Assembly (NCBI RefSeq): GCF_014696715.1
Contig: NZ_JACJQO010000005.1
Coordinates: forward strand, 558,001-622,000
Source: Pseudanabaena sp. FACHB-2040
GTDB taxonomy: Bacteria > Cyanobacteriota > Cyanobacteriia > Phormidesmidales > Phormidesmidaceae
Direction of reading: 5' to 3'
DNA length: 64,000 nt
Part shown: piece after piece, positions 48,588 to 64,000 of the stretch
Position numbering within the stretch: the stretch's first letter is position 1
Layout: every line of letters begins with the position of its first letter
Position numbers and translations under genes: made by a program
The notes under the pieces: generated by a model
What the model was told of the DNA's origin: nothing
Seen by the model: only the letters and a program-made list of their open reading frames with translations
Databases searched by the model: none

Positions 48588-48961
48588 GGATTCCCTCTCT
48601 TAGTGGGTGAACTCAATGGAGACTTGAGCACTAGAGCAGAGGGGTCTTAAAAACAACAAAACCCCTACCCTCTAGCAACAAGCTAGACAAGTAGGAGCCA
48701 TCAGCTTAAGTGAACAGCTAAGTCACTTCAGCGGTCAGGGTGAGCTCCATCACCCATTAATGCAGGTGTCTTCCAGCCGTACTTTGCAGGAAGACGCTTC
48801 TCCAAAGCCTAACATGGCCGAGTTTCTGCATAGTTTTGCCCTGAGGTATGGCCGCCTTAAGTCATGTATCAAATTTAACCCTAATTGCAACAACCCGTAT
48901 TTACCCGCATATCAAGCAAAGTTCTTTAAAGCTAGAAATGAGGAACATTTAGAGAAATTCA
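48588..48961. other. 374-bp divergent promoter region with a stem
   Basis: Between the antiporter and the acidic repeat protein, a stem at 48631-48675 (CTAGAG...GGGGT / ACCCC...CTCTAG) lies in the leader of the antiporter. It may be a leader element, but it matches no class I know. The frame 48760-49002 overlaps the next gene and looks spurious. Confidence 0.4.
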
Positions 48962-51941: not shown

Positions 51942-53045
51942 TTAATCCCGAGGTCTGGGTATCCAGAGCCGGGATTTTTGCGGTTGGGTCAGAAGTTTTT
52001 GCCAGAGGGCTTCGTACTGGTGAGTCATGTGGGTAACGGTGAACTGGGCAGAAGCGATCGCACGTGCCCGCTGCCCCAACTGTGCCCTCAGTGTAGGATC
52101 GTCCCGCAGTTGCCGCAGCGCTGCCGCTAGCCCCTCTACGTCATCTTTTTCGATCAGCAGGCCGGTCTGGCCATGTGCGATCGCTTCTGCCACACTGCCC
52201 ACCCGTGTCGCGATCACCGGACGGCTGGCCAGCATCGCTTCTACCACAGTCAAGGGAAAACCCTCGGAGCGAGAAGGCTGGGCAATCACATCAAAAGTAC
52301 TAAGGTAGGGGCGCGGCTGCTCCACCCACCCCAGCAGCTTAACCCGCTCTTGAATGCCCAGTTCTGCCGCTAGCTGCTCTAGCTGAGGCCGAAAAGCCCC
52401 TTCCCCCAAAATCACCAGCCGAGTACGCTCCACCTGAGCCAATGCCCGCAGCAGCACATCGTGGCCTTTCATTGGGTCTAGGCGGCCAATGCTGCCGACC
52501 TGTAGCCAGCCGTCTGCGGGCGCTAGAGAAACTGCCTCTAGACAAGGCTCATCTGGCACGCCATTAGGGATAGATTCCACCGTGTTGCGGCCCAAAGCGT
52601 AAAAATCTTCCATTCTCCGGCTGCTGGCAATGCCCACTGCCACATGAGCATCTACCCGCAGCGACAGCAGCCGCACCCGCAACCAAGTCCAAAAATCCGT
52701 CGTTCGCAGCGGCAGCTGATCGACCCGCACTACTCGCGCCTGAGGAACACTCAGGGCCGCCAGCAGACCTACCATTCCAGCCCAGGGTGTACATAGGTTG
52801 AAGTGAATCAGGTCGGGCCGCAGGCGGTAAAAGGTGCCGAAATGAGCCAGCAGGGAAGGTAGCCCAGCACCCGGTAAGACGACCGTTGCAATTTGGGGCC
52901 GCCCTGCTGCTACAGCTTCTACAACAGCCTGACTAACACCGACCACAATAAGCTCAGTCTCAGCAGCAGCGGCTTTAACCAAATGACCCAGGCTAATTTC
53001 AGCCCCACCAACCCCGGCCGCATCGGTGTAGACAACCACACGCAT
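51942..53045 (-). CDS. GT4-family glycosyltransferase
   Basis: The 367-residue enzyme has the two-Rossmann GT-B fold. N-terminal: a GGAEISLGHLVKAA motif that binds acceptor. C-terminal: GSIGRLDPMKGHDVLL, ILGEGAFRPQLEQLA, and the donor motif SRSEGFPLTVVEAMLASRPVIATRVGSV with the conserved Glu. Donor and acceptor are unknown. It lies 3 bp after the CdaR-type regulator gene, so the two form one operon reading left, away from the heptose operon. Confidence 0.9.
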   Translation of the reverse strand: MRVVVYTDAAGVGGAEISLGHLVKAAAAETELIVVGVSQAVVEAVAAGRPQIATVVLPGAGLPSLLAHFGTFYRLRPDLIHFNLCTPWAGMVGLLAALSVPQARVVRVDQLPLRTTDFWTWLRVRLLSLRVDAHVAVGIASSRRMEDFYALGRNTVESIPNGVPDEPCLEAVSLAPADGWLQVGSIGRLDPMKGHDVLLRALAQVERTRLVILGEGAFRPQLEQLAAELGIQERVKLLGWVEQPRPYLSTFDVIAQPSRSEGFPLTVVEAMLASRPVIATRVGSVAEAIAHGQTGLLIEKDDVEGLAAALRQLRDDPTLRAQLGQRARAIASAQFTVTHMTHQYEALWQKLLTQPQKSRLWIPRPRD

Positions 53046-53048
53046 GGT

Positions 53049-54236
53049 TCACCGCTGCCTTGCTTTTAGAGGCTTAAGCTCCTGCAGCAGCATAGCCAGG
53101 CGAATTTGAATAGCCTCATCGAACTGGCGTGGATCAAGCCCGGTTAGAGAGGTAATCTTGTCTAGCCGGTAGCTTAGCGTGTTGCGATGAATTAGCAGCC
53201 GCTTAGCCGTGGAAGACAACGCACAGTCTTCATCAAAAAAGACTTTCAGGGTTTCCAGCAAATCTGGCTCGGCATCGAGAGGGCTGAGCAGATGCCGGGC
53301 CAGCTCTACCTTAGTACGCTCATCAGCCACACAGGCAAAGGCTGCGATGCCCAGCCGATCCAAACAGTACACCTGATTTTGCCCGTTGAACTGCCGCCCC
53401 AGCCGTAGCGCCATACGCGCATCTTGGTAAGAGCGAGACAGCCCCAATACGCCCGGATGATAGCGCCCGATACCGACACTGACAGCGGCCCCCGTATCCT
53501 GCCGGAGCCGCAGCAGCAGCGCATCCCCTGCCCGCTTCAGGGCCTCTAGGTTAGTCCAAGAACTGGCCGCTTCCTGGGAAGTCAGGCTGCCTGCAGCCCA
53601 AGTGCCCATATTTTTAGTATCGCTGGCCTTGAGCACTGCAAACTCACCGTCTCCCAGATCGGTACAGATCGTGTCATCCGGCAGATAAAAGAAACGGACC
53701 ACACTTTCGATGATGCGCTGGGCTCGCTTGTGCTGCTCAAAACCAGAGCGTTCAGGCGGATCTTGATCGGAGTGAATGAAGTCAGTTGCATCGATCAAAA
53801 TGACGGCCCGAGGCGGGGCTAGATCTAGACCCAAGAGCTTGGACTGCCTGAGCACCAGGGATTCATCCTGGATATGACCGTGCAAAAGGCTCTGAATCAC
53901 CTGATTTTTCTGAGTTTGCTCGTCAGGCAGCAAGACGGGTTGGGTAATCTGGCTCAGAACTAGGTCCAAAAAGGCTTGGGCGATTCGGGGGGAAATGACT
54001 TCGCCACCCGTAGATTGCTCAATTAAAACTTCTCCTGCCTGGTCTTGAATATGTAGAGGAAAGCGAAGAAAATGGCCCGCTTCAGGATTAGCTTCACTCG
54101 ATGTAGCAGGCTTAGACCCCAGTAATCCACTGGCTACCACACTGCCCTGAGAATTGCTGACAATCACCTCTCTTTGCAGAATTTCAGTCAATCTATTGGC
54201 AACAACACTAGCAATCTGAGTAAACTTTGTAGACAC
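53049..54236 (-). CDS. CdaR/PucR-type transcriptional regulator
   Basis: The 395-residue protein has an N-terminal diacid-recognition-like domain (residues 1-135: LTEILQREVIVSNSQGSVVASG), a middle region related to degenerate GGDEF domains (about 150-280), and a C-terminal helix-turn-helix of the HTH_30 type (CALSSTAKRLLIHRNTLSYRLDKI). Family members sense sugar diacids or purine-pathway compounds. Here it is cotranscribed with a glycosyltransferase and divergent from a heptose cluster, so it may control surface-glycan genes. The ligand is unknown. Confidence 0.88.
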   Translation of the reverse strand: MSTKFTQIASVVANRLTEILQREVIVSNSQGSVVASGLLGSKPATSSEANPEAGHFLRFPLHIQDQAGEVLIEQSTGGEVISPRIAQAFLDLVLSQITQPVLLPDEQTQKNQVIQSLLHGHIQDESLVLRQSKLLGLDLAPPRAVILIDATDFIHSDQDPPERSGFEQHKRAQRIIESVVRFFYLPDDTICTDLGDGEFAVLKASDTKNMGTWAAGSLTSQEAASSWTNLEALKRAGDALLLRLRQDTGAAVSVGIGRYHPGVLGLSRSYQDARMALRLGRQFNGQNQVYCLDRLGIAAFACVADERTKVELARHLLSPLDAEPDLLETLKVFFDEDCALSSTAKRLLIHRNTLSYRLDKITSLTGLDPRQFDEAIQIRLAMLLQELKPLKARQR

Positions 54237-54581: not shown

Positions 54582-54664
54582 TGCACAAGCATGCTTGTGC
54601 AAATGCCCAATTAATACTTTCAGGAAAGTAAAATTCTTCTGGCAAATGCCCAATGAAATTCATT
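54582..54664. promoter_or_regulatory. palindromes and direct repeats upstream of the heptose operon
   Basis: In the 496-bp region between the regulator and the GT9 gene: a perfect 20-bp palindrome TGCACAAGCATGCTTGTGCA (54582-54601), two direct copies of CAAATGCCCAAT (54600 and 54643), and a second palindrome AATGAAATTCATT (54652-54664). The spacing of 43 bp between direct repeats is near four helical turns. These are candidate operator sites for the adjacent CdaR-type protein. The rest of 54237-54732 shows no gene. Confidence 0.5.
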
Positions 54665-54732
54665 AGCTACCCCCCCTAGGATGCAGATCATAGAATGCGC
54701 TTTGGGTTCAGAAATTGGCATTTCAACTATCT

Positions 54733-55764
54733 ATGGCTCCTGTTGGACGAATCGTGGTGGTGCGATCGCTTCCCGGTCTTGGTGATCTGCTGTGCACCGT
54801 TCCGGCGTTGCGGGCATTGCGGTCAGCTTTTCCGGCGGCCCATATCACTCTATTGGGCCTACCGGGCAGCCGTTGGATGGTTGAGCGTTTTCCCGATCTA
54901 CTAGATGACTGGCTGGCCTTTCCGGGCTACCCCGGTATCCCAGAAGGCTGGCAGAGTGTGCAGACTACTGTTCAATTTTTAGCTCAAACTCAGGCGCAGC
55001 CCTTTGATCTAGCTATTCAAATGCACGGCAACGGCAGCTACATGAACTCCTTTGTCACCTTACTAGGGGCAAAGCAGACGGCAGGCTTTTACATGCCGGG
55101 GTTGTTTTGCCCTAGCCCTGAGTCTTTTTTGCCCTACCCTCAAGACGCCCCAGAAGTTGAGCGTATGCTTCAGCTCATGGAGTTTTTAGGAATTCCTTCG
55201 CAGGGCAGCGAGATGGCCTTTCCGGTCACTGAGGCTGAGGTGCGATCGCACCAGCAACTAGCCACTGCCCACGGGCTACAACCCTACCGATACCTCTGCC
55301 TCCACCCTGGCGCTAGCGACGCTAGCCGCCGCTGGTCTCCAGCTAACTTTGCCCAAGTCGCTGACCACTTAGCGATAAAGGGATACCGCATTGTGCTGAC
55401 CGGCACCGATGAAGAGCAGCCGATTATCGAATCTGTCATTAGCCAAATGCACACCCAGCCGATCAACCTGGCCGGCAAGACCAACTTAGGCACCTTAGCG
55501 GCCCTACTTCAGCAGACCGCTTTGCTGATCTGCAACGATACCGGCGTCTCCCATCTGGCCGCCGCTCTCAAAACGCCCAGCATCGTGATTTTTAGCAACT
55601 CCGAAGTCAAGCGTTGGGCTCCTCTTAACCGGCAATACCACCGCCCCATCGACTGCCGAGAAGCCGGCATTGCCACCACAGCAGCTGTCTTAGTGCAGGC
55701 CAACGAGTTTCTGCGGCAGCTACCCAAATCCTTATCCCGTGAAGAGGTTAGTCATGCCGTTTGA
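54733..55764 (+). CDS. GT9 family (heptosyltransferase-like) glycosyltransferase
   Basis: A 343-residue GT-B enzyme of the ADP-heptose:LPS heptosyltransferase family. It begins VGRIVVVRSLPGLGDLLCTVPALRALR (the GDLL/GD motif), with LCLHPGASDASRRWSPANFAQVADHL (GASxxxRRW) and LICNDTGVSHLAAALKTPSIVIF (donor motif). The product matches WaaF/WaaC/WaaQ relatives. ATG 54733 is used; the TTG at 54715 would add only six residues. It is the first gene of the rightward operon. Confidence 0.92.
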   Translation: MAPVGRIVVVRSLPGLGDLLCTVPALRALRSAFPAAHITLLGLPGSRWMVERFPDLLDDWLAFPGYPGIPEGWQSVQTTVQFLAQTQAQPFDLAIQMHGNGSYMNSFVTLLGAKQTAGFYMPGLFCPSPESFLPYPQDAPEVERMLQLMEFLGIPSQGSEMAFPVTEAEVRSHQQLATAHGLQPYRYLCLHPGASDASRRWSPANFAQVADHLAIKGYRIVLTGTDEEQPIIESVISQMHTQPINLAGKTNLGTLAALLQQTALLICNDTGVSHLAAALKTPSIVIFSNSEVKRWAPLNRQYHRPIDCREAGIATTAAVLVQANEFLRQLPKSLSREEVSHAV

Positions 55765-56155
55765 AGACTGGGCAGCCCTGCAGCGGCTCTTAATTTGGAG
55801 TGCAGATAGCCCAAAAGCCCTACAGCCTGCCCTAGAAGCCCTGCATCAGGCATTACCAGAAACAGCATTGACAGTCTTAGAAAGTCCGGCTCGCCCTAAA
55901 AGCCAGCTCAACGAACCGCTCCAAACCGTGCAGTGGCTGCAGCAGCACCCCTTTGACGCAGCCATTATTTTCTCTGCCCCCAACCAGTCCCCCTATGCCC
56001 CAGCCTACCTCTGCTACTTGGCAGGCATTCCTGTGCGGATCGGCCAATCCCGAGAATTTGGCGGCCAGGTGCTCTCTCACTGCTTTGAACCCCCTGCTCC
56101 CCTAGAGCCAGTCGATCCACATCTGCATCTGCTGCAAGCCGCTGGTCTGCTATGA
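55754..56155 (+). CDS. stand-alone N-terminal half of a GT9-like glycosyltransferase
   Basis: This 133-residue protein matches the N-terminal Rossmann domain of GT9 enzymes: LIWSADSPKALQPALEALHQALP and FDAAIIFSAPNQSPYAPAYLCYLAGIPVRIGQ, parallel to FDAAIIFTVYSQNPLPSAF in the GT9 at 62309. It stops before the C-terminal donor-binding domain. It overlaps the preceding GT9 by 11 bp (ATG 55754), which suggests coupled translation. It may be a partner subunit, an acceptor-binding protein, or the remnant of a full gene. Confidence 0.78.
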   Translation: MPFEDWAALQRLLIWSADSPKALQPALEALHQALPETALTVLESPARPKSQLNEPLQTVQWLQQHPFDAAIIFSAPNQSPYAPAYLCYLAGIPVRIGQSREFGGQVLSHCFEPPAPLEPVDPHLHLLQAAGLL

Positions 56156-56189
56156 GGCGGAGGCACAAGAAGGGCGGAGAAACAAAGCT

Positions 56190-56265
56190 GTATCAATCCT
56201 CTCCCCCATCATCCCACCTCCCCCATCTCATCTCCTGCCCACTCTCCCCTGCCCCTACTCCCACG
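56190..56265. repeat. pyrimidine-rich short-repeat tract in the operon
   Basis: CCCCCATCATCCCACCTCCCCCATC-like repeats occupy most of the 112-bp gap before the next gene, adjacent to ATG 56268. They are similar to tracts at 4540 and 60200. Confidence 0.55.
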
Positions 56266-56267
56266 CC

Positions 56268-57248
56268 ATGAAACGACTCCGCATTCTCACCTGGCACATC
56301 CACGGCAGCTACCTCTACTACCTAACTCAGGCACCCCACGAGTTTTACCTGCCAGTCAAGCCCAATAAACCAGAGGGCTACGGGGGAAAGCTGTCGGGCT
56401 TTGCCTGGGGCGACAACGTCCATGAGGTCGCAGCAGAAGAGGTGCAAAATCTCGAATTTGACTGCGTCTTGTTCCAGTCGCAGCGCAACTATTTGCAGGA
56501 TCAGCACGACATTCTTTCCCCCGCTCAGCGGCAGCTGCCCCGCCTGTTTTTGGAACACGACCCCCCTCGCGAGCACCCGACCGATACCCGGCATGTAGTG
56601 GACGATCCGGCGGTGCTGCTGGTACACGTCACGGCTTTCAATCAGCTGATGTGGGACAGCGGCAGGACACCTACGCGGGTGGTGGATCATGGGGTGATCG
56701 TGCCCTCCGGTGTGCAGTACACAGGCGAGATTCCCAAGGGCATTGTGGTGGTGAATGGGTTGCGATCGCGCGGTCGTCGCCTTGGCCTCGATATTTTTGA
56801 GGCCATCCGTGAGGAAATACCTCTAGATCTGGTGGGTATGGGCTCAGAAGCGCTGGGCGGTCTGGGGGAGGTGTCTCACGCTGAGCTGCCCGCTTTGATG
56901 GCTCGCTACCGCTTTTTCTTCCATCCCATTCGCTACACCAGCTTGGGGCTGGCACTGTGCGAAGCGATGACGCTGGGCCTGCCGGTGGTAGGGTTAGCCA
57001 CCACAGAGTTGACCACCGTCGTTGAAAACGGCATTTCTGGCTACATCGACACCTGCCTGCCCAAGTTGGTACAGCACATGCAAACCCTGCTCGACGATGC
57101 CCGACTGGCCCGACGGCTCGGTGAGGGGGCCAAGTGGCAGGCCCAAGAGCGCTTTAGCATCCAACGCTTTATCCGCGATTGGGAGGATGTTTTTGCCGAA
57201 GCGATTGCCCGCAACCGGGAACAACAGCCCCTGGTAATGGGCCGATGA
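56268..57248 (+). CDS. GT4-like glycosyltransferase
   Basis: This 326-residue GT-B protein begins RLRILTWHIHGSYLYYLTQAPHEFYLPVK. The C-terminal half contains VNGLRSRGRRLGLDIFEAI, FFFHPIRYTSLGLALCEAMTLGLPVVGLATTE (donor motif with Glu) and GRRLGEGAKWQAQERFS-like ending. It lacks a membrane segment. It is one of two GT4-type enzymes in the rightward operon. Substrates are unknown. Confidence 0.85.
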   Translation: MKRLRILTWHIHGSYLYYLTQAPHEFYLPVKPNKPEGYGGKLSGFAWGDNVHEVAAEEVQNLEFDCVLFQSQRNYLQDQHDILSPAQRQLPRLFLEHDPPREHPTDTRHVVDDPAVLLVHVTAFNQLMWDSGRTPTRVVDHGVIVPSGVQYTGEIPKGIVVVNGLRSRGRRLGLDIFEAIREEIPLDLVGMGSEALGGLGEVSHAELPALMARYRFFFHPIRYTSLGLALCEAMTLGLPVVGLATTELTTVVENGISGYIDTCLPKLVQHMQTLLDDARLARRLGEGAKWQAQERFSIQRFIRDWEDVFAEAIARNREQQPLVMGR

Positions 57249-57357
57249 TTTGCGATTAGGGCACAGGCCGCCGCCTCTACCAATACGCACCTCTACCCAG
57301 TAGCAAGTGGGCGGTGCCCACCTATCCACTCCTCACCCCTCACCCCCCGAAATCGCT

Positions 57358-59337
57358 ATGACTAAACGGATTGCCCTGATCAGTGAACACGCTTCGCCCC
57401 TTGGGATTTTTGGAGGCACCGACAGCGGCGGCCAGAATGTCTACGTCGGCCAGATCGCCAAGCAGCTTGCGGCCATTGGCTACAGTGTGGACGTGTTTAC
57501 CCGGCGCGATCGCACCGACATCCCCGATGTCGTCACCTGGCACAATGGGGTCCGCATCATTCATGTGCCGGTGGGGCCAGCCCGGCCCATTCCCAAGGAA
57601 AGGCTGCTGCCCTACATGGAGGCGTTCACTGAGTTTGTTCTGGCCTTTATGCGGGAGGAGCGGCTAAAGCTCAATGGGTCTTTTAAAGGGCGACACTTCT
57701 ACGACCTGATCCACGCCAACTTCTGGATGTCGGCCCTGGTCGCTAACCAGATCAAGCAGCAAACGGGCGTACCCTTTGTCGTCACCTTCCACGCCCTAGG
57801 CCGAGTGCGGCGGCAACACCAAGGGCAGGCCGATGGCTTTCCCGATCGGCGCTTTGCCGTTGAAGACGAGATTGTGCAGGCGGCTGACTTCATTGTGGCT
57901 GAGTGCCCCCAAGACCGAGATGACCTGATTCAGCTCTACCAAGCCGATCCCAACAAGATTCGCATTATTCCCTGCGGCGTAGATGCCGCCGAGTTTTGGC
58001 CCATTCCTAAAGACAAGGCGCGGGCCACGCTGGGCCTGCCCCAGGACGAGCGCATTGTGCTGCAGCTGGGCCGGATGGTGCCGCGCAAGGGCGTAGATAA
58101 TGCATTGCGGGGCGTCGCTGCCCTTAACTATCAGGCGCAGATGCCGACTCGGCTGCTGGTGGTTGGGGGTGAGGCTTCTGAACCTGACCCAGCCCTCACG
58201 CCTGAGATTGGGCGGCTCCAAACCCTGGCTCAGGAGCTGAACCTGACGGATCGCGTCACCTTTGTCGGCCAGCGGGGCCGCGAGGTGCTGAAGTACTACT
58301 ACAGCGCTGCTGATATCTTCGTCACCACGCCCTGGTACGAGCCCTTTGGCATTACACCCCTAGAGGCGATGGCCTGCGGCACCCCCGTCATTGGCACAAA
58401 CGTGGGCGGTATCAAGTTCACAGTGAAGGATGGGGAAACGGGCTATCTGGTTGCGCCCAATGAACCGCAGGCACTGTGCGATCGCATGGCCTTTCTCTAC
58501 CGCAACCCCGCTATGCTCAACCTGTTTGGGCGGCAAGCGATCCGCCATGTGGCCAGCCAGTTTACCTGGCCCAAGGTGACCAGTGCGATCGCAGCTCTCT
58601 ACGAAGACGTGCTGACCCTAGAGCCCCAGCCCATTACCCTGCCCTCTCAAGACATCGGTGAACTGACCCGCATGGAGGACTGCTTTGATGCCGCCATTAT
58701 GGCTCTTAAACAGTCCCAACAAGTGCTCAGCACCGATATTCTGGCAGCGGCAAGGTTAATGGGCCAGTGCTTTACCCAGGGCGGCAAGGTGCTGGTCTGC
58801 GGCAATGGCGGTAGCGCTTCCGACTCTCAGCACTTCGCGGCTGAGCTGGTGGGCCGCTTTCGCTCGCCCCACCGGGCTGGGCTGCCTGTTATCGCCCTCA
58901 CTGCCGACACCGCCCTGATCACCGCTTGGTCCAACGATGTGGGCTACGAAGATATCTTCGCCCGCCAAGTCCACACCTTTGCCCAGCCAGGGGACGTGCT
59001 GCTCATGATGAGCACCAGCGGACGCTCCCCCAACCTGATTCGCGCCGTCGAGGCCGCTAGCACCCGCAATGTTTCCACCATTGCCTTACTCGGCGGCAGC
59101 GGCGGCGACCTGATGCCACTGGTAGATCTGCCCCTTTGCGTCCCTGCCAGCGACACCCAGCGAATTCAGGAAGTCCACATTTTGATCCTGCATCTGCTGT
59201 GCGAGTGGATTGAGGAAGATCTGCTGCGGGCCAAATGTCCCCAATCGGCCCCGGCTCTGTCGCCGGTTTCCGCCCCTGGGGTAGAGACACGGTTAGCCGC
59301 CTCTCTACGCCCTTCGACCCAAAAGCGCCTGCTTTAA
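57358..59337 (+). CDS. gmhA: GT4 glycosyltransferase fused to sedoheptulose-7-phosphate isomerase (GmhA)
   Basis: This 659-residue protein has two enzymes. Residues 1-430 are a GT-B glycosyltransferase (SEHASPLGIFGGTDSGGQNVYVG; VLQLGRMVPRKGVDNALRG; TPWYEPFGITPLEAMACGTPVIG), closest in style to sucrose-phosphate-synthase/MshA types. Residues 440-635 are a complete GmhA SIS domain (VLVCGNGGSASDSQHFAAELVGRF, LLMMSTSGRSPNLIRAVE, TQRIQEVHILILHLLCEWIE). GmhA converts sedoheptulose 7-phosphate to D-glycero-D-manno-heptose 7-phosphate. The frame is open across the junction without stop or frameshift. ATG 57358 is the natural start. gmhB and hldE follow. Confidence 0.93.
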   Translation: MTKRIALISEHASPLGIFGGTDSGGQNVYVGQIAKQLAAIGYSVDVFTRRDRTDIPDVVTWHNGVRIIHVPVGPARPIPKERLLPYMEAFTEFVLAFMREERLKLNGSFKGRHFYDLIHANFWMSALVANQIKQQTGVPFVVTFHALGRVRRQHQGQADGFPDRRFAVEDEIVQAADFIVAECPQDRDDLIQLYQADPNKIRIIPCGVDAAEFWPIPKDKARATLGLPQDERIVLQLGRMVPRKGVDNALRGVAALNYQAQMPTRLLVVGGEASEPDPALTPEIGRLQTLAQELNLTDRVTFVGQRGREVLKYYYSAADIFVTTPWYEPFGITPLEAMACGTPVIGTNVGGIKFTVKDGETGYLVAPNEPQALCDRMAFLYRNPAMLNLFGRQAIRHVASQFTWPKVTSAIAALYEDVLTLEPQPITLPSQDIGELTRMEDCFDAAIMALKQSQQVLSTDILAAARLMGQCFTQGGKVLVCGNGGSASDSQHFAAELVGRFRSPHRAGLPVIALTADTALITAWSNDVGYEDIFARQVHTFAQPGDVLLMMSTSGRSPNLIRAVEAASTRNVSTIALLGGSGGDLMPLVDLPLCVPASDTQRIQEVHILILHLLCEWIEEDLLRAKCPQSAPALSPVSAPGVETRLAASLRPSTQKRLL

Positions 59338-59379
59338 CCCGTTTTTGAACCCCTATTTTGAACCCCTAGGAGAATATCG

Positions 59380-60135
59380 ATGCAAACCCTTCCCCAAAAA
59401 ACGGCTTCCGATCAACCCCTAGCTAATAAAGTCGTCGTCGTCACTGGTGGTGCCCAAGGATTGGGTGAAGCCACCTGTTACTGTCTGGCTGAAGGCGGGC
59501 TGAAAGTCGTTGTAGCCGACGTGCAGCCCGCTCGGGGCCAACAGCTAGCTGAGAAAATCCAGGAACAGGCGGGAGATGCGATCGCACTGCCCCTCGACGT
59601 CAGCGATCCCGACCAGAGCACCCGCCTGGTTAACCAAGTGCTTGACCACTACGGCAAGATCGACGTTTTAATCAACAACGCCGGTATCGACGTCACCCTT
59701 TCCGTCGAAGAACTCGAGATCAACGACTGGCAGCGGGTTATGGGCGTCAACCTCAATGGCCCCTTCTATATGTCTAAAGCCGTCTTTCCCCACATGCGCG
59801 AACAGGGCAGCGGCCAGATCATCAACATCGTCTCCACCGCCGCCAAACGCGCCTGGGCCAACGCCTCTGCCTACCACGCCAGCAAGTGGGGCCTGCTCGG
59901 CTTCTCCCAAGCCCTCCATGTCGAAGGCCGCTTGCACAACATCAAAGTTACTTCAGTCATCGCAGGCGGCATGCGCACCCCCTTCCTGCTAGATCGCTTC
60001 CCCGACATCGACATCAACACTCTGCAAGACCCCATGAACGTGGCCGAAACCATCAAGTACCTGCTAATGCAGCCTAAAGACACCGTGATCTCAGAAATTA
60101 TGGTGCTGCCGATGAAGGAGACTTCCTGGCCGTAG
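59380..60135 (+). CDS. classical short-chain dehydrogenase/reductase
   Basis: A 251-residue NAD(P)-dependent oxidoreductase: cofactor motif VVVTGGAQGLGEATCY (TGxxxGxG), NNAGID, and the catalytic Ser/Tyr/Lys with YHASKWG. It has the size of 3-ketoacyl reductase-type SDRs, not the roughly 310-residue extended SDR fold of HldD. An AGGAGAA site precedes ATG 59380. It sits between gmhA and gmhB, so it may act on the heptose or on another sugar of the glycan; the substrate is unknown. Confidence 0.9.
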   Translation: MQTLPQKTASDQPLANKVVVVTGGAQGLGEATCYCLAEGGLKVVVADVQPARGQQLAEKIQEQAGDAIALPLDVSDPDQSTRLVNQVLDHYGKIDVLINNAGIDVTLSVEELEINDWQRVMGVNLNGPFYMSKAVFPHMREQGSGQIINIVSTAAKRAWANASAYHASKWGLLGFSQALHVEGRLHNIKVTSVIAGGMRTPFLLDRFPDIDINTLQDPMNVAETIKYLLMQPKDTVISEIMVLPMKETSWP

Positions 60136-60141
60136 AAAGGC

Positions 60142-60274
60142 AGGGGGTGGATGGGTGGTCGGGTAGATGGGTATAAAACCACAGCCTTCGATAACTCTTT
60201 ACTCCTACTTCCACTCATCCACTCTCTCACCCATCCACCCTCCCACTCCCCACCCATCCACTCCCTCTCCACTC
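60142..60274. repeat. G-rich/C-rich repeat tract that can form a long stem
   Basis: A G-rich block (60142-60172) and a C-rich block (60204-60274) face each other between the SDR and gmhB genes. Perfect 13-bp arms GGGTGGATGGGTG (60145-60157) and CACCCATCCACCC (60228-60240) could pair around about 70 nt. This may attenuate or stabilise the operon mRNA. Confidence 0.6.
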
Positions 60275-60865
60275 ATGCAGAAGGCTATCTTCCTCGACAA
60301 AGACGGAACCCTGATTGAAGACGTCCCCTACAACGTCGATCCAGCTCGCATGATGCTGTGTCCTAGGGCGTTGAGTGGCGTCCACAAGCTCTATCAGGCG
60401 GGCTACCAGCTGATTGTCATCACCAACCAGTCCGGCATTGCCCGAGGATATTTTGATGAATCGGCCCTGACTGCTGTAGAGCAGCGACTGCGCCAAATGC
60501 TGGAACTGCCGCTAGCAGGCTTTTACTATTGCCCTCACCACCCCAATGGCACAGTGGCGGAGTATGCCGTCTCCTGCGACTGCCGCAAACCTAAGCCAGG
60601 GATGCTGCTCCAGGCCGCTGCCGATCACGATATTGATCTGCATCAGTCTTGGTTTATTGGCGACATTTTGAACGATGTCGAAGCAGGGCTGCGGGCGGGC
60701 TGCCGCACAGTTCTGATCGACAACGGCAACGAAACCGAGTGGGTGCTCACGCCACAACGCACGCCCCATCATGCGACCACCAATCTCAGCCTTGCTGCCG
60801 ACTACATCCTCCACACCCAACCCGCCCATGACTACTCCAGACGCACAAACCAGCCGGTTGCTTGA
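60275..60865 (+). CDS. gmhB: D-glycero-beta-D-manno-heptose-1,7-bisphosphate 7-phosphatase
   Basis: This 196-residue HAD phosphatase begins AIFLDKDGTLIEDVPYNVDP (DxD: FLDKDGT, with K instead of the usual R). Also seen are IVITNQSGIARGYF, the GmhB zinc ligands in YYCPHHPNG ... CDCRKPKPGM, and IGDILNDVEAGLRAGC. It removes the C7 phosphate of the heptose bisphosphate. The predicted frame continues upstream, but family alignment and the C-rich tract make ATG 60275 the real start. Its 3' end overlaps hldE by 38 bp. Confidence 0.93.
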   Translation: MQKAIFLDKDGTLIEDVPYNVDPARMMLCPRALSGVHKLYQAGYQLIVITNQSGIARGYFDESALTAVEQRLRQMLELPLAGFYYCPHHPNGTVAEYAVSCDCRKPKPGMLLQAAADHDIDLHQSWFIGDILNDVEAGLRAGCRTVLIDNGNETEWVLTPQRTPHHATTNLSLAADYILHTQPAHDYSRRTNQPVA

Positions 60866-62312
60866 TCTGATCGATCGCTTTGCTCACCTGAAAGTACTGG
60901 TGATTGGCGAAGCTATTCTCGATAGCTACCTCCAGGGCGGAGCCACCCGCCTCTGCCGAGAAGCGCCCGTACCTATCGTTGACGTGGATCAGCGCCAGTA
61001 TGCGCCGGGAGGCGCGGCCAACACAGCAGCCAACGTGGCGAGGCTGGGCGGCGAGACGTACTTTTTGTCGGTGATTGGCTGCGATTACGAGGGCGATCGC
61101 CTACGGGAAGCCCTGACCGAGCGGAGTGTGCAGCTCGACGATCTGTTGAGCCACTCTGACCGACGCACGCTAGTAAAACAGCGGGTCATGGCCGATGCTC
61201 ACCTGCTGGTGCGATTTGACCAGGGCAGCACCGGAGCCATTTCAGAAGCCGCAGAGGCCCTGCTGATTCAAAAGCTGGTGCAGCGGTTCCCGCTTTGCGA
61301 TGCTGTAATTATTTCAGACTACGCCTATGGCATCTTCACGCCAGCGGTGATTGCAACTCTGCAACAGCTTCAGGCCCAATATCCACGGGTGATTGTGGCC
61401 GACTCCAAACGGCTGCAGGCTTATGCTGAAGTCGGCGTTACTGCAGTTAAGCCCAACTACGATGAGGCGGTGCGGCTGCTGAATTTGTCCCGGCTGAATG
61501 GACATGCCCGAGTTGAGCAAATTTCTCGTCACGGCCAGACGGTGCTGCAGCTAGCAGGCAGTCAAATGGCGGCCCTGACCTTGGACGAAGAGGGCGCAGT
61601 GATTTTTGTGGGCGACTTACCCCCCAGCCGCACCTTTGCCAAACCGGCCCCCAGTTCCCACGCTACTGGGGCAGGCGATACCTATGTGGCCGCCCTGGCT
61701 CTAGCTTTGGGTGCGGGCGCAGACCCCCATGCAGCAGCATCTCTTGCGGCGATGGCAACGGCGGTAATTGTGCAGGAGGAAGGCACTACCTGCTGCAATC
61801 CGCTGGCCTTGCGCCGGGCTCTGTTTGACCAGAACAAGCGCATCTTTAATCACACTGAGCTGGTGTCGCTGGTGGAGCAGCACCGCGCCCTGGGCAAACG
61901 AATTGTGTTTACTAACGGCTGCTTTGACATTCTCCACTCGGGCCATGTCACCTGCCTTGAGCAGGCCAAGGCCCTGGGGGATGTGCTGATTGTGGGGGTC
62001 AACAGCGATGAGAGCATTCGCCAGCTCAAGGGGCCAACCCGTCCGGTCAACTCGCTGGCGGATCGGCTGACGGTGCTGGCGGCTCTAGGCTGTGTGGATT
62101 ACGTGGTGCCCTTTGGCGATCTTTCTCCGCGTGAGCTGATTCGCATTATCCGCCCCAACGTATATGCCAAGGGCGGTGACTACACCCGCGACACTCTGCC
62201 CGAAACGCCGCTGATTGAAGAGCTGGGCGGCGAGGTGAAAATTTTGCCCTACCTGGGCGATCGCTCCACAACCCATCTAATTCAGCAAATTCTTGCAGGA
62301 CACGCCGAATGA
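60828..62312 (+). CDS. hldE: bifunctional heptose kinase / ADP-heptose synthase
   Basis: A 494-residue HldE with both domains in the E. coli order. Residues 1-325 are a PfkB-type kinase (VIGEAILDSYLQG, APGGAANTAANVARLGG, SHATGAGDTYVAALALAL) that makes heptose 1,7-bisphosphate. Residues 345-494 are the nucleotidyltransferase (RIVFTNGCFDILHSGHVTCLEQAK, GVNSDESIRQLKG) that makes ADP-D-glycero-beta-D-manno-heptose. ATG 60828 is chosen, within the end of gmhB, so the two genes are translationally linked. Confidence 0.95.
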   Translation: MTTPDAQTSRLLDLIDRFAHLKVLVIGEAILDSYLQGGATRLCREAPVPIVDVDQRQYAPGGAANTAANVARLGGETYFLSVIGCDYEGDRLREALTERSVQLDDLLSHSDRRTLVKQRVMADAHLLVRFDQGSTGAISEAAEALLIQKLVQRFPLCDAVIISDYAYGIFTPAVIATLQQLQAQYPRVIVADSKRLQAYAEVGVTAVKPNYDEAVRLLNLSRLNGHARVEQISRHGQTVLQLAGSQMAALTLDEEGAVIFVGDLPPSRTFAKPAPSSHATGAGDTYVAALALALGAGADPHAAASLAAMATAVIVQEEGTTCCNPLALRRALFDQNKRIFNHTELVSLVEQHRALGKRIVFTNGCFDILHSGHVTCLEQAKALGDVLIVGVNSDESIRQLKGPTRPVNSLADRLTVLAALGCVDYVVPFGDLSPRELIRIIRPNVYAKGGDYTRDTLPETPLIEELGGEVKILPYLGDRSTTHLIQQILAGHAE

Positions 62313-63469
62313 AGACTGCTGACTGGACCACAGCCAACCGCATTCTCTGCATTCGCCTAGACAGCCTGGGAGATGTGCTGATGACGACTCCGGCTCTCGG
62401 CGCAATTAAGGAGACGAACCCTCAAGCTCATCTGACGCTGATGACCTCAGAGGCGGGAAGTGCGATCGCACCCCTCCTCCCCATCATTGACGAAACTCTG
62501 GTCTACGATGCCCCCTGGCTTAAGGCCACTGCTCCCCGCACCAATAGCCAGCCCGAATATGCCCAGTTCGAGGCCCTGCGCCAGCAGTTTGATGCCGCCA
62601 TCATCTTTACGGTCTACAGCCAAAACCCGTTGCCCTCGGCTTTTATGACCTACATGGCAGATATTCCTCTGCGGCTGGCCCATTGCCGCGAAAACCCCTA
62701 CCAGCTTCTGACCCATACGGTCAAAGAACCGGAGCCAGAGCAGTTTATCCGTCATGAAGTGCAGCGCCAGCTCGACCTGGTCGCCAGCGTCGGCTTTCAC
62801 ACAGCCACTCCCCGCATGAGCCTCGATATTCCCCTCAAGGCCCAAAAGCGGGTCGCCCTGCTGCTGTCGGAACTGGGTCTGAGCAGTTCAAGCCCTTGGG
62901 TAGTCGTTCATGCTGGTGCATCGGCCCCCTCTCGCCGCTACTCGCCCGAGCAGTTTGCTCAGGTGGCTGATGCCCTTCAGACCAAAGGCATCCCAATCGT
63001 CTTCACCGGCACCAAAACCGAGCGTCCCCTGATTGACCAGATTCGGTCTCAAATGGGGACATCTTCTCTGTCTCTTGTGGGGATGCTGGATTTAGCGGGC
63101 TTAGCGGCCCTGCTCCAGACGGCACCGCTACTTCTGTCCAATAACACTGGCCCAGTTCACCTAGCAGCGGCGGTGGGAACCCCCGTCGTTGATCTGTACG
63201 CCCTAACCAATCTCCAGCATACTCCCTGGGGCGTGCCCAACCGGGTGCTCTACCACGAGGTGCCCTGCCGCCTTTGCTATAAGAGCATTTGCCCTGAGGG
63301 GCATCATGACTGTCTGCGGCGAGTGGAGCCAGAACAGGTAGTTGCGGCGGTTGTGGAGCTATTGGCCGAAACCCATCGCCCCTCCGATTCCTTTCCCTCC
63401 ATGGAGATGCAATTAGATAGTCCTTCGGGCAATAGCCCTTTGGGCATGGCTTCGTTAGGGTTTCGCTAG
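62309..63469 (+). CDS. GT9 family (heptosyltransferase-like) glycosyltransferase
   Basis: The 386-residue GT-B enzyme overlaps the hldE stop as ATGA. It has CIRLDSLGDVLMTTPALGAIK, VVVHAGASAPSRRYSPEQFAQVADAL and LLLSNNTGPVHLAAAVGTPVVDLYALTN, the standard GT9 motifs, plus a Cys-rich VPCRLCYKSICPEGHHDCLRRV segment (residues 315-335) common in this group. The last 20 or so residues, after SFPSMEMQL, are encoded by a repeat-like CCTTCGGGCAATAGCCCTTTGGGC sequence and probably are not functional. It is the likely ADP-heptose-using partner of the pathway genes upstream. Confidence 0.92.
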   Translation: MKTADWTTANRILCIRLDSLGDVLMTTPALGAIKETNPQAHLTLMTSEAGSAIAPLLPIIDETLVYDAPWLKATAPRTNSQPEYAQFEALRQQFDAAIIFTVYSQNPLPSAFMTYMADIPLRLAHCRENPYQLLTHTVKEPEPEQFIRHEVQRQLDLVASVGFHTATPRMSLDIPLKAQKRVALLLSELGLSSSSPWVVVHAGASAPSRRYSPEQFAQVADALQTKGIPIVFTGTKTERPLIDQIRSQMGTSSLSLVGMLDLAGLAALLQTAPLLLSNNTGPVHLAAAVGTPVVDLYALTNLQHTPWGVPNRVLYHEVPCRLCYKSICPEGHHDCLRRVEPEQVVAAVVELLAETHRPSDSFPSMEMQLDSPSGNSPLGMASLGFR

Positions 63470-63513
63470 GGCACAGAGGCCTGTGCTCCGACCAGATTAT
63501 TCTGCCCTGTGCC

Positions 63514-63605
63514 CTTCTATTGGGTCGTGCTGCGCTTGACACCAACCTACAAGACCTCCCTTCTGGGTTTTGGGTGGTTGCGCTGTGCTTAACCCCAACA
63601 AGCCT
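63514..63605. repeat. interspersed TTGGGT...ACCCAA elements
   Basis: Two imperfect copies (TTGGGTCGTGCTGCGCTTGACACCAACCTAC and GGTGGTTGCGCTGTGCTTAACCCCAAC) of the element seen at 11953. They are non-coding and lie between the GT9 and GT2-like genes. Confidence 0.55.
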
Positions 63606-63630
63606 TTTGTCCTTCCCCTCTGCTTTCTCC

Positions 63631-64000
63631 ATGTCCACCCTCAACGTCCTTATTCCTACCTACAATCGGCCTACGGTGCTAGCGATCACGCTGACTGGCC
63701 TGTGCGCCCAAACGTTTCAAGATTGCAGCGTAATTGTTTTTGACCAGACCGAAGGTCAGGCTGTAGTCAATGTCAGTGAAGTTCAGGCGGTGGCGAGAGG
63801 GTTGCGATCGCACCAGCACCCCGTCCAAATTCTCCAGCACCTGCCGCGCCAAGGCGTGGCCGAGCACCGTCAGTTCCTCTTGGAGCAGGCTACTGCGCCC
63901 GTGCTGGCCCAGCAGCGGGTGACGGCCCGCTACGGAGACTGCGGCATTCTGCCTTCAGGGGCCTACCACCAAGAGATGGTGACGACAATTTGCGATCGCA
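63631..64000 (+). CDS. GT2-like glycosyltransferase, partial, possibly internally deleted
   Basis: The gene runs off the right edge; 123 residues are visible. The N-terminus (MSTLNVLIPTYNRPTVLAIT) is a GT-A nucleotide-binding start, and LPRQGVAEHRQFLLEQATAP is the block that normally leads into the metal-binding DxD. Here ATAP continues directly as VLAQQRVTARYGDCGILPSG with no hydrophobic strand or Asp pair. That suggests an internal deletion, an unusual family, or a sequence error. Confidence 0.75.
   Translation, partial: MSTLNVLIPTYNRPTVLAITLTGLCAQTFQDCSVIVFDQTEGQAVVNVSEVQAVARGLRSHQHPVQILQHLPRQGVAEHRQFLLEQATAPVLAQQRVTARYGDCGILPSGAYHQEMVTTICDR

Follow-up and report, generated by a model that had tools for sequence, protein, structure and literature searches.

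The right-hand part of the 64,000-nucleotide stretch of Pseudanabaena sp. FACHB-2040 DNA analysed here (contig NZ_JACJQO010000005.1, positions 558,001 to 622,000; hereafter the window, to which all coordinates refer) carries a single rightward gene run for ADP-heptose supply and glycosyl transfer, flanked on the left by a unit of two genes in divergent orientation. We consider it fairly probable that this locus is a heptose-glycan cassette that is complete in itself and brings its own switch. On the + strand, the genes follow in the order GT9a, half-GT9, GT4b, GT4-GmhA fusion, short-chain dehydrogenase/reductase (SDR), GmhB, HldE, GT9b and GT2 remnant, and the run extends past the window, where a 708-residue protein with two tandem GT9 domains (double GT9) is encoded just outside. 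An initial annotation had listed the gmhA fusion, gmhB, hldE, two full GT9 enzymes, two GT4-type enzymes and the SDR in one rightward run, and all of these enzymes are backed by Pfam and NCBIfam profiles and have intact catalytic motifs. The three start/stop overlaps it gave are exact (55754/55764, 11 bp; 60828/60865, 38 bp; 62309/62312, 4 bp). It had missed the regulator, the operator, the half-GT9, the damage to the GT2 gene and the double GT9.

The fusion (57358–59337, + strand) joins a glycosyltransferase of the sucrose-phosphate synthase (SPS)/MshA type to a sedoheptulose 7-phosphate isomerase. Its profile matches reach 298 bits for the MshA-like GT4 part and 185–212 bits for GmhA, the TIGR00441 score being 185 bits against a cut-off of 209. 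The metal-binding and catalytic residues of the GmhA domain (H492, E496, Q604, and H612) do not vary among 18 fusions of several phyla, and their spacings match those of the E. coli GmhA residues H61, E65, Q172, and H180. GmhB, the heptose 1,7-bisphosphate 7-phosphatase (60275–60865, + strand), scores best with the beta-type model (PRK08942, 147 bits against a cut-off of 178), and alignment with E. coli GmhB (3l8e) shows that the DxD motif (FLDKDGT) and the zinc motif are retained. HldE, the bifunctional heptose 7-phosphate kinase/heptose 1-phosphate adenylyltransferase (60828–62312, + strand; PRK11316, E = 2e-106), has both domains at full length and the motifs GAGDT, TNGCFDILHSGH and RSTT. 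Its domain I scores 232 bits against a cut-off of 345, and its adenylyltransferase domain (rfaE_dom_II) is the sole heptose model in the locus to exceed the cut-off, with 194 against 181.5 bits.

By these sequence tests, GmhA, HldE and GmhB of the ADP-heptose pathway are present, and HldD is the missing member. No HldD above the cut-off was found in the whole genome, where the best match reaches 116 against 274.6 bits, and ADP-heptose is therefore expected in the D,D form. The SDR (59380–60135, + strand; PF00106, E = 5e-59), which occurs in 53 of the best 80 related loci described below, was considered as the HldD epimerase and ruled out, since it is a classical SDR, whereas HldD is an extended one.

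The two full GT9 enzymes are GT9a (343 residues; 54733–55764, + strand; PF01075, E = 2.7e-36) and GT9b (386 residues; 62309–63469, + strand; PF01075, E = 9.2e-31). Both exceed the PF01075 gathering score, retain the residues D13, E222, and H266, and have an arginine at the position of WaaC K192, but both score below all cut-offs for heptosyltransferases I, II and III. GT9a has the LGD, RRW (with the arginine at K192) and NDTGVSH motifs, the last of these including D261 and H266 and conforming to the signature D(T/S)(G/A)xxH. The corresponding motif in GT9b is NNTGPVH, and N(T)GxxH is found in all aligned members. Replacement of K192 by arginine has been reported for D,D-heptosyltransferases, and WahF is active with a serine at position 261, where GT9b has its asparagine (PMC3559599). 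The absence of HldD above the cut-off, the arginine at K192 and the asparagine at D261 in GT9b together point to ADP-D,D-heptose, and the donor most likely stays in this form. Four of the five PF01075 matches in the genome fall in this locus.

The glycan does not appear to be linked to 3-deoxy-D-manno-oct-2-ulosonic acid (Kdo). The Kdo transferase KdtA (PF04413) has no match in the whole genome, which is 99.95% complete, while the E. coli, Caulobacter and Bacteroides controls match. GmhA, GmhB, HldE and GT9 make up the classical inner-core set, which would suit a lipopolysaccharide (LPS) core locus with a Kdo-Hep inner core, but the missing KdtA refutes a Kdo-linked core, and with HldD lacking above the cut-off and both GT9 enzymes below the heptosyltransferase cut-offs we regard a classical core locus as extremely improbable. 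In the absence of both Kdo transferase and HldD above the cut-off, the locus is best read as supplying ADP-D,D-heptose for a glycan that does without Kdo. According to reviews, cyanobacterial LPS is generally without heptose and Kdo (PMC4390846, PMC4515613), and Spirulina platensis, for which heptoses are listed, is an exception (PMC4515613). The initial annotation had proposed a distinct surface glycan by reference to the heptose-less LPS of some picocyanobacteria. That comparison does not hold for a genome of 6.28 Mb with Nodosilinea and Leptolyngbya among its relatives. The many glycosyltransferases make a surface or extracellular glycan the most likely product, the destination itself being a guess.

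In the proposed route, the GmhA domain would draw off sedoheptulose 7-phosphate, an intermediate of the Calvin cycle and the pentose-phosphate pathway, and GmhB and HldE would convert it to ADP-D,D-heptose. GT9a, GT9b and the double GT9 would then transfer heptose, and the GT4 enzymes, including GT4b (326 residues; 56268–57248, + strand; PF00534, E = 3e-10), whose gene adjoins the fusion gene in most loci, would add other sugars to give a heptose-containing glycan independent of Kdo.

That the Gmh/Hld and GT9 genes form a dedicated operon, and are not scattered elsewhere, is borne out by a scan anchored on the fusion and covering one genome per species in 84,980 species; at least 80 loci exist, and the counts given here are for the best 80. 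These belong to Cyanobacteriota, Chloroflexota, Bacteroidota, Pseudomonadota, Myxococcota, Acidobacteriota, Planctomycetota and other phyla, and the operon is not confined to cyanobacteria. The order GT4b > GT4(-GmhA) > SDR > GmhB > HldE > GT9b recurs in Cyanobacteria, Chloroflexi, Myxococcota, Acidobacteria and Nitrosospira, and in Bacteroidota mostly without the SDR. Fusion and HldE are both present in 45 loci, both missing in 25 and discordant in 10, several of which are cut by contig ends. The clusters without GmhA and HldE are those of Burkholderiales and part of those of Bacteroidota, and in all 16 such genomes tested a heptose-1-phosphate adenylyltransferase above the cut-off was found. 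This support is only moderately strong because Burkholderiales are expected to encode the adenylyltransferase anyway. In a tree of the GT4 domain made by a quick method, the phyla mostly cluster, with some mixing, which makes exchange of the cluster among phyla probable without proving it. The fusions on two contigs of metagenome-assembled genomes, labelled 'Chloroflexaceae' (L067) and 'Proteobacteria' (L061), group with the cyanobacterial ones, and these contigs are possibly misbinned. Two anammox Planctomycetota (L106 and L111) have an unfused GT4 with GT9a, and L106 also has GT4b; the neighbours include an MFS transporter, a glycogen-debranching-type glycoside hydrolase and a Rieske/FAD oxidoreductase.

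The companions of the cluster in other lineages bear on a different kind of product. A carbamoyltransferase lies beside the cluster in 24 loci, and lineage-specific companions include GT2 enzymes, ABC (MsbA-type) or MFS exporters, and an inositol-monophosphatase-family gene. The GT4 domain of the fusion is nearest to the sucrose-phosphate synthase Tll1590 and to MshA, which use soluble phosphorylated acceptors, and ADP-heptose is known to feed natural products such as septacidin (PMC11573728). An SPS/MshA-type GT4 could then start on a soluble acceptor, the GT9 enzymes could add heptose, and a small exporter could release the resulting heptoside or oligosaccharide as a specialised metabolite, for which the exporters, carbamoyltransferase and inositol-monophosphatase-family gene in clusters of other phyla would be fitting partners. 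We consider this unlikely in view of the many glycosyltransferase domains, with four full GT9 domains in the locus, the lack of an exporter among the flanking open reading frames (ORFs) scanned, and the lack of typical natural-product genes among those seen.

The divergent unit at 51942–54236 is part of the module. It encodes a regulator of PucR/CdaR architecture (53049–54236, – strand; HTH_30, PF13556, E = 5e-21; GGDEF-like domain, PF17853, E = 6.5e-16) and, 3 bp downstream, a GT4 glycosyltransferase that is conserved with the cluster (51942–53045, – strand; PF13692, E = 3.6e-39). In four loci (L054, L056, L057, and L100), a relative of this GT4 with 56–63% identity is the final gene of the main operon. 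The C-terminal HTH_30 domain of the regulator, with 74.7 bits against a gathering score of 27, places it in the PucR family; its N-terminus is Diacid_rec-like over the first 31 positions only and sub-threshold (16.5 against 23.6 bits). Identity with CdaR itself was ruled out by a score of 80 against 612 bits with the NCBIfam CdaR model and by the lack of a confident Diacid_rec domain. Among 65 genomes of the window's family, the regulator occurs in exactly the 14 that have the fusion and is absent from the other 51, a match with a chance probability of 1/C(65,14) = 1.6e-14 if the genomes, which are related, were independent.

The candidate operator consists of two 16-bp palindromes upstream of the operon, with the consensus TTGKGCAWWTGCMCAA and with centres exactly 43 bp apart. 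The left palindrome (TTGTGCAAATGCCCAA, 54595–54610) agrees with the consensus at 16 of 16 positions, and the right one (TCTGGCAAATGCCCAA, 54638–54653) at 14 of 16. A candidate –10 element, TAGGAT (54677–54682, + strand), stands out by column conservation over 24 loci. Since relatives have a TANNAT hexamer 22–23 bp after the right palindrome, this palindrome would occupy the –35 position, as for an activator; a sigma-70 consensus scan of the promoter region gave no match. In the regulator-bearing group of 28 loci, both sites reach at least 12 of 16 matches in 22 loci and form a weaker pair in four; the pair is missing from L083 and L067, and also from each of 20 cluster loci of other lineages. 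Of 70 spacings tested, 43 bp gives the only peak. In 1.56 Mb of loci, 43-bp pairs are confined to the cluster, where 19 loci have them, while the 69 other spacings together give five pairs. Two operator geometries considered at one stage, a direct repeat of 43 bp or an inverted one of 50 bp, were replaced by the single palindromic arrangement. In its own genome, the two 15-bp operator cores are the only exact matches, and matches with one or two mismatches are within about twice the backward control, so the regulon may be this locus alone.

From the conserved sites and their co-occurrence with the regulator, we predict that the regulator binds both palindromes, of which the right one is at –35, and acts as an activator of the operon. 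In GabR, of the same family, the targets are two inverted repeats directly upstream of –35, and strong binding requires both (PMC7652997). Such co-occurrence is a correlation, and binding by the PucR-type protein is a prediction, so another regulator could bind the palindromes while the PucR-type protein merely travels with the cluster. We judge this quite unlikely, given the GabR precedent and the behaviour of the site in genomes with a relocated gene: eight cyanobacterial genomes were selected for flanks lacking the regulator, and in seven of them it is encoded elsewhere and the site is present, whereas cluster genomes of other lineages, all without the site, have the regulator in none of 12 cases. 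In Fischerella sp. PCC 9431 (L083), only a regulator fragment could be matched and the operator is degraded to one site, as if the two had been lost together.

The half-GT9 (133 residues; 55754–56155, + strand) corresponds to the N-terminal, acceptor-side domain only, with a probability of 99.8% in hhalign against the N-terminal half of GT9b. It has no Pfam match, no LGD motif and nothing of the donor domain. It is nevertheless retained in 24 loci (about 22 genomes) with invariant S, Y, Y, CYLA, R, G, EF and G residues, and in three loci (L063, L081, and L084) a full-length GT9 occupies its position. A fold search with a predicted model (predicted local distance difference test score 84) gave generic Rossmann matches, none with E < 0.001, so that the GT9 assignment relies on profiles, not structure. 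In a bolder and still tentative proposal, the locus would be a mobile module that is spread across phyla and makes a D,D-heptose glycan not yet described, controlled in cyanobacteria and some Chloroflexi by a dedicated PucR-type activator through the 43-bp-phased double palindrome, with the stand-alone GT9 acceptor domain acting as an accessory heptosyltransferase subunit.

Several points weigh against the heptose-glycan cassette. Most NCBIfam equivalog scores are below the curated cut-offs, which indicates a divergent enzyme set, and GT9b has lost the aspartate at position 261. No exporter and no flippase were found among the flanking ORFs scanned, and the genome's matches to PF01943, at C1 and at C5:1048021, are more than 400 kb away. 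The initial annotation had seen no Kdo, Wzx or Wzy genes in the window and suggested extending the contig to the right. The extension brought the double GT9, and the first two absences hold on this wider view, within the scopes given; Wzy was not searched for separately. The loci that were counted also supplied the operator consensus, so that absolute scores are not independent, and the relatedness of the genomes makes p-values overstate the case; the spacing and control comparisons guard against the former circularity.

The GT2 gene adds a further point of this kind. Its remnant (63631–64000 in the window, ending at 64038 outside, + strand) has an in-frame deletion of residues 92–225: in a tblastn search with a full family member (L054:16952–17758, 268 residues), residues 5–91 and 226–268 abut in one frame, and the core of the gene is lost in the source strain. 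Together with one relative that has a split HldE and another that has a split regulator, this might suggest an operon in decay that makes no product in the source strain. Such decay seems very unlikely, since all other ORFs are intact with their catalytic motifs and, with protein identity to relatives at about 70%, the operator, the overlaps and the gene order persist.

Full-length HldE of this type was found in 24 of 291 sampled Cyanobacteriia (about 8%), in one of them in two pieces. In the window's family, HldE is present in 10 of 65 genomes, all among the 14 with the fusion, and one of the 10 has it interrupted by a stop or frameshift. The four remaining fusion genomes (G023, G024, G025, and G035) have the fusion at the end of a contig, with no HldE found in other places; the assembly break is at the same place in all four. 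Outside the fusion-bearing genomes, the family has one distant HldE homologue (27% identity), which belongs to a second gmhA/hldE-like locus (G034:C258) in a member without the fusion. In another family of Cyanobacteriia (f15), stand-alone heptose-kinase-like genes with 44–52% identity to the HldE kinase domain are common and have no adenylyltransferase domain within the match, hinting at other heptose routes.

Each of the enzyme families is already known, and heptose biosynthetic enzymes are widespread (PMC11573728). Compared with the E. coli-type pathway (GmhA, HldE, GmhB and HldD, with WaaC/WaaF/WaaQ), the three supply enzymes are the same, with motifs kept, and the GT9 enzymes belong to the same fold family. 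Here, GmhA is fused to a GT4, HldD above the cut-off and the Kdo transferase are absent, the genes form one regulated operon, and the GT9 enzymes fall below the cut-offs and differ from WaaC/F/Q at K192 and, in GT9b, at D261. The D,D-heptosyltransferases and WahF-type enzymes of Aeromonas and Actinobacillus, with K192 replaced by arginine and, in WahF, D261 by serine (PMC3559599), act on LPS core, and the comparison with the cluster GT9 enzymes covers these positions. In the tridomain isomerase-kinase-nucleotidyltransferase fusions of Actinobacteria (HldE/HENase; PMC11573728), a GmhA-type isomerase is likewise part of a fusion, whereas here its partner is a glycosyltransferase and HldE stands alone. 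The regulator shares HTH_30, a divergent gene and two inverted repeats just upstream of –35 with GabR of C. glutamicum, and HTH_30 with a GGDEF-like domain with E. coli CdaR, but it differs in the palindrome, the 43-bp spacing, the predicted anabolic glycan target and the lack of a confident Diacid_rec domain, besides the low CdaR score. The open-licence literature searched holds no description of the GT4-GmhA cassette with its cross-phylum conservation, of the regulator/operator circuit or of the half-GT9.

Elsewhere in the window, a cyclic di-AMP riboswitch (2838–2977, + strand, 65.8 bits) and a fluoride riboswitch (48685–48763, – strand, 40.4 bits) exceed their Rfam gathering scores. A dispersed intergenic repeat of about 30–45 bp with the core GGTCGTGCTGCGCTTGACACCAACC lies at 63520–63560; it is present in a single copy in the window at up to three mismatches and has 20 other partial copies in the genome.

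The locus offers a complete, regulated heptose cassette in a group whose LPS is usually described as heptose-less, and makes heptose production by some cyanobacteria directly testable. It also exposes a heptose-glycan module common to several phyla and a conserved half-glycosyltransferase, and provides a sharply defined candidate operator for an uncharacterised regulator.

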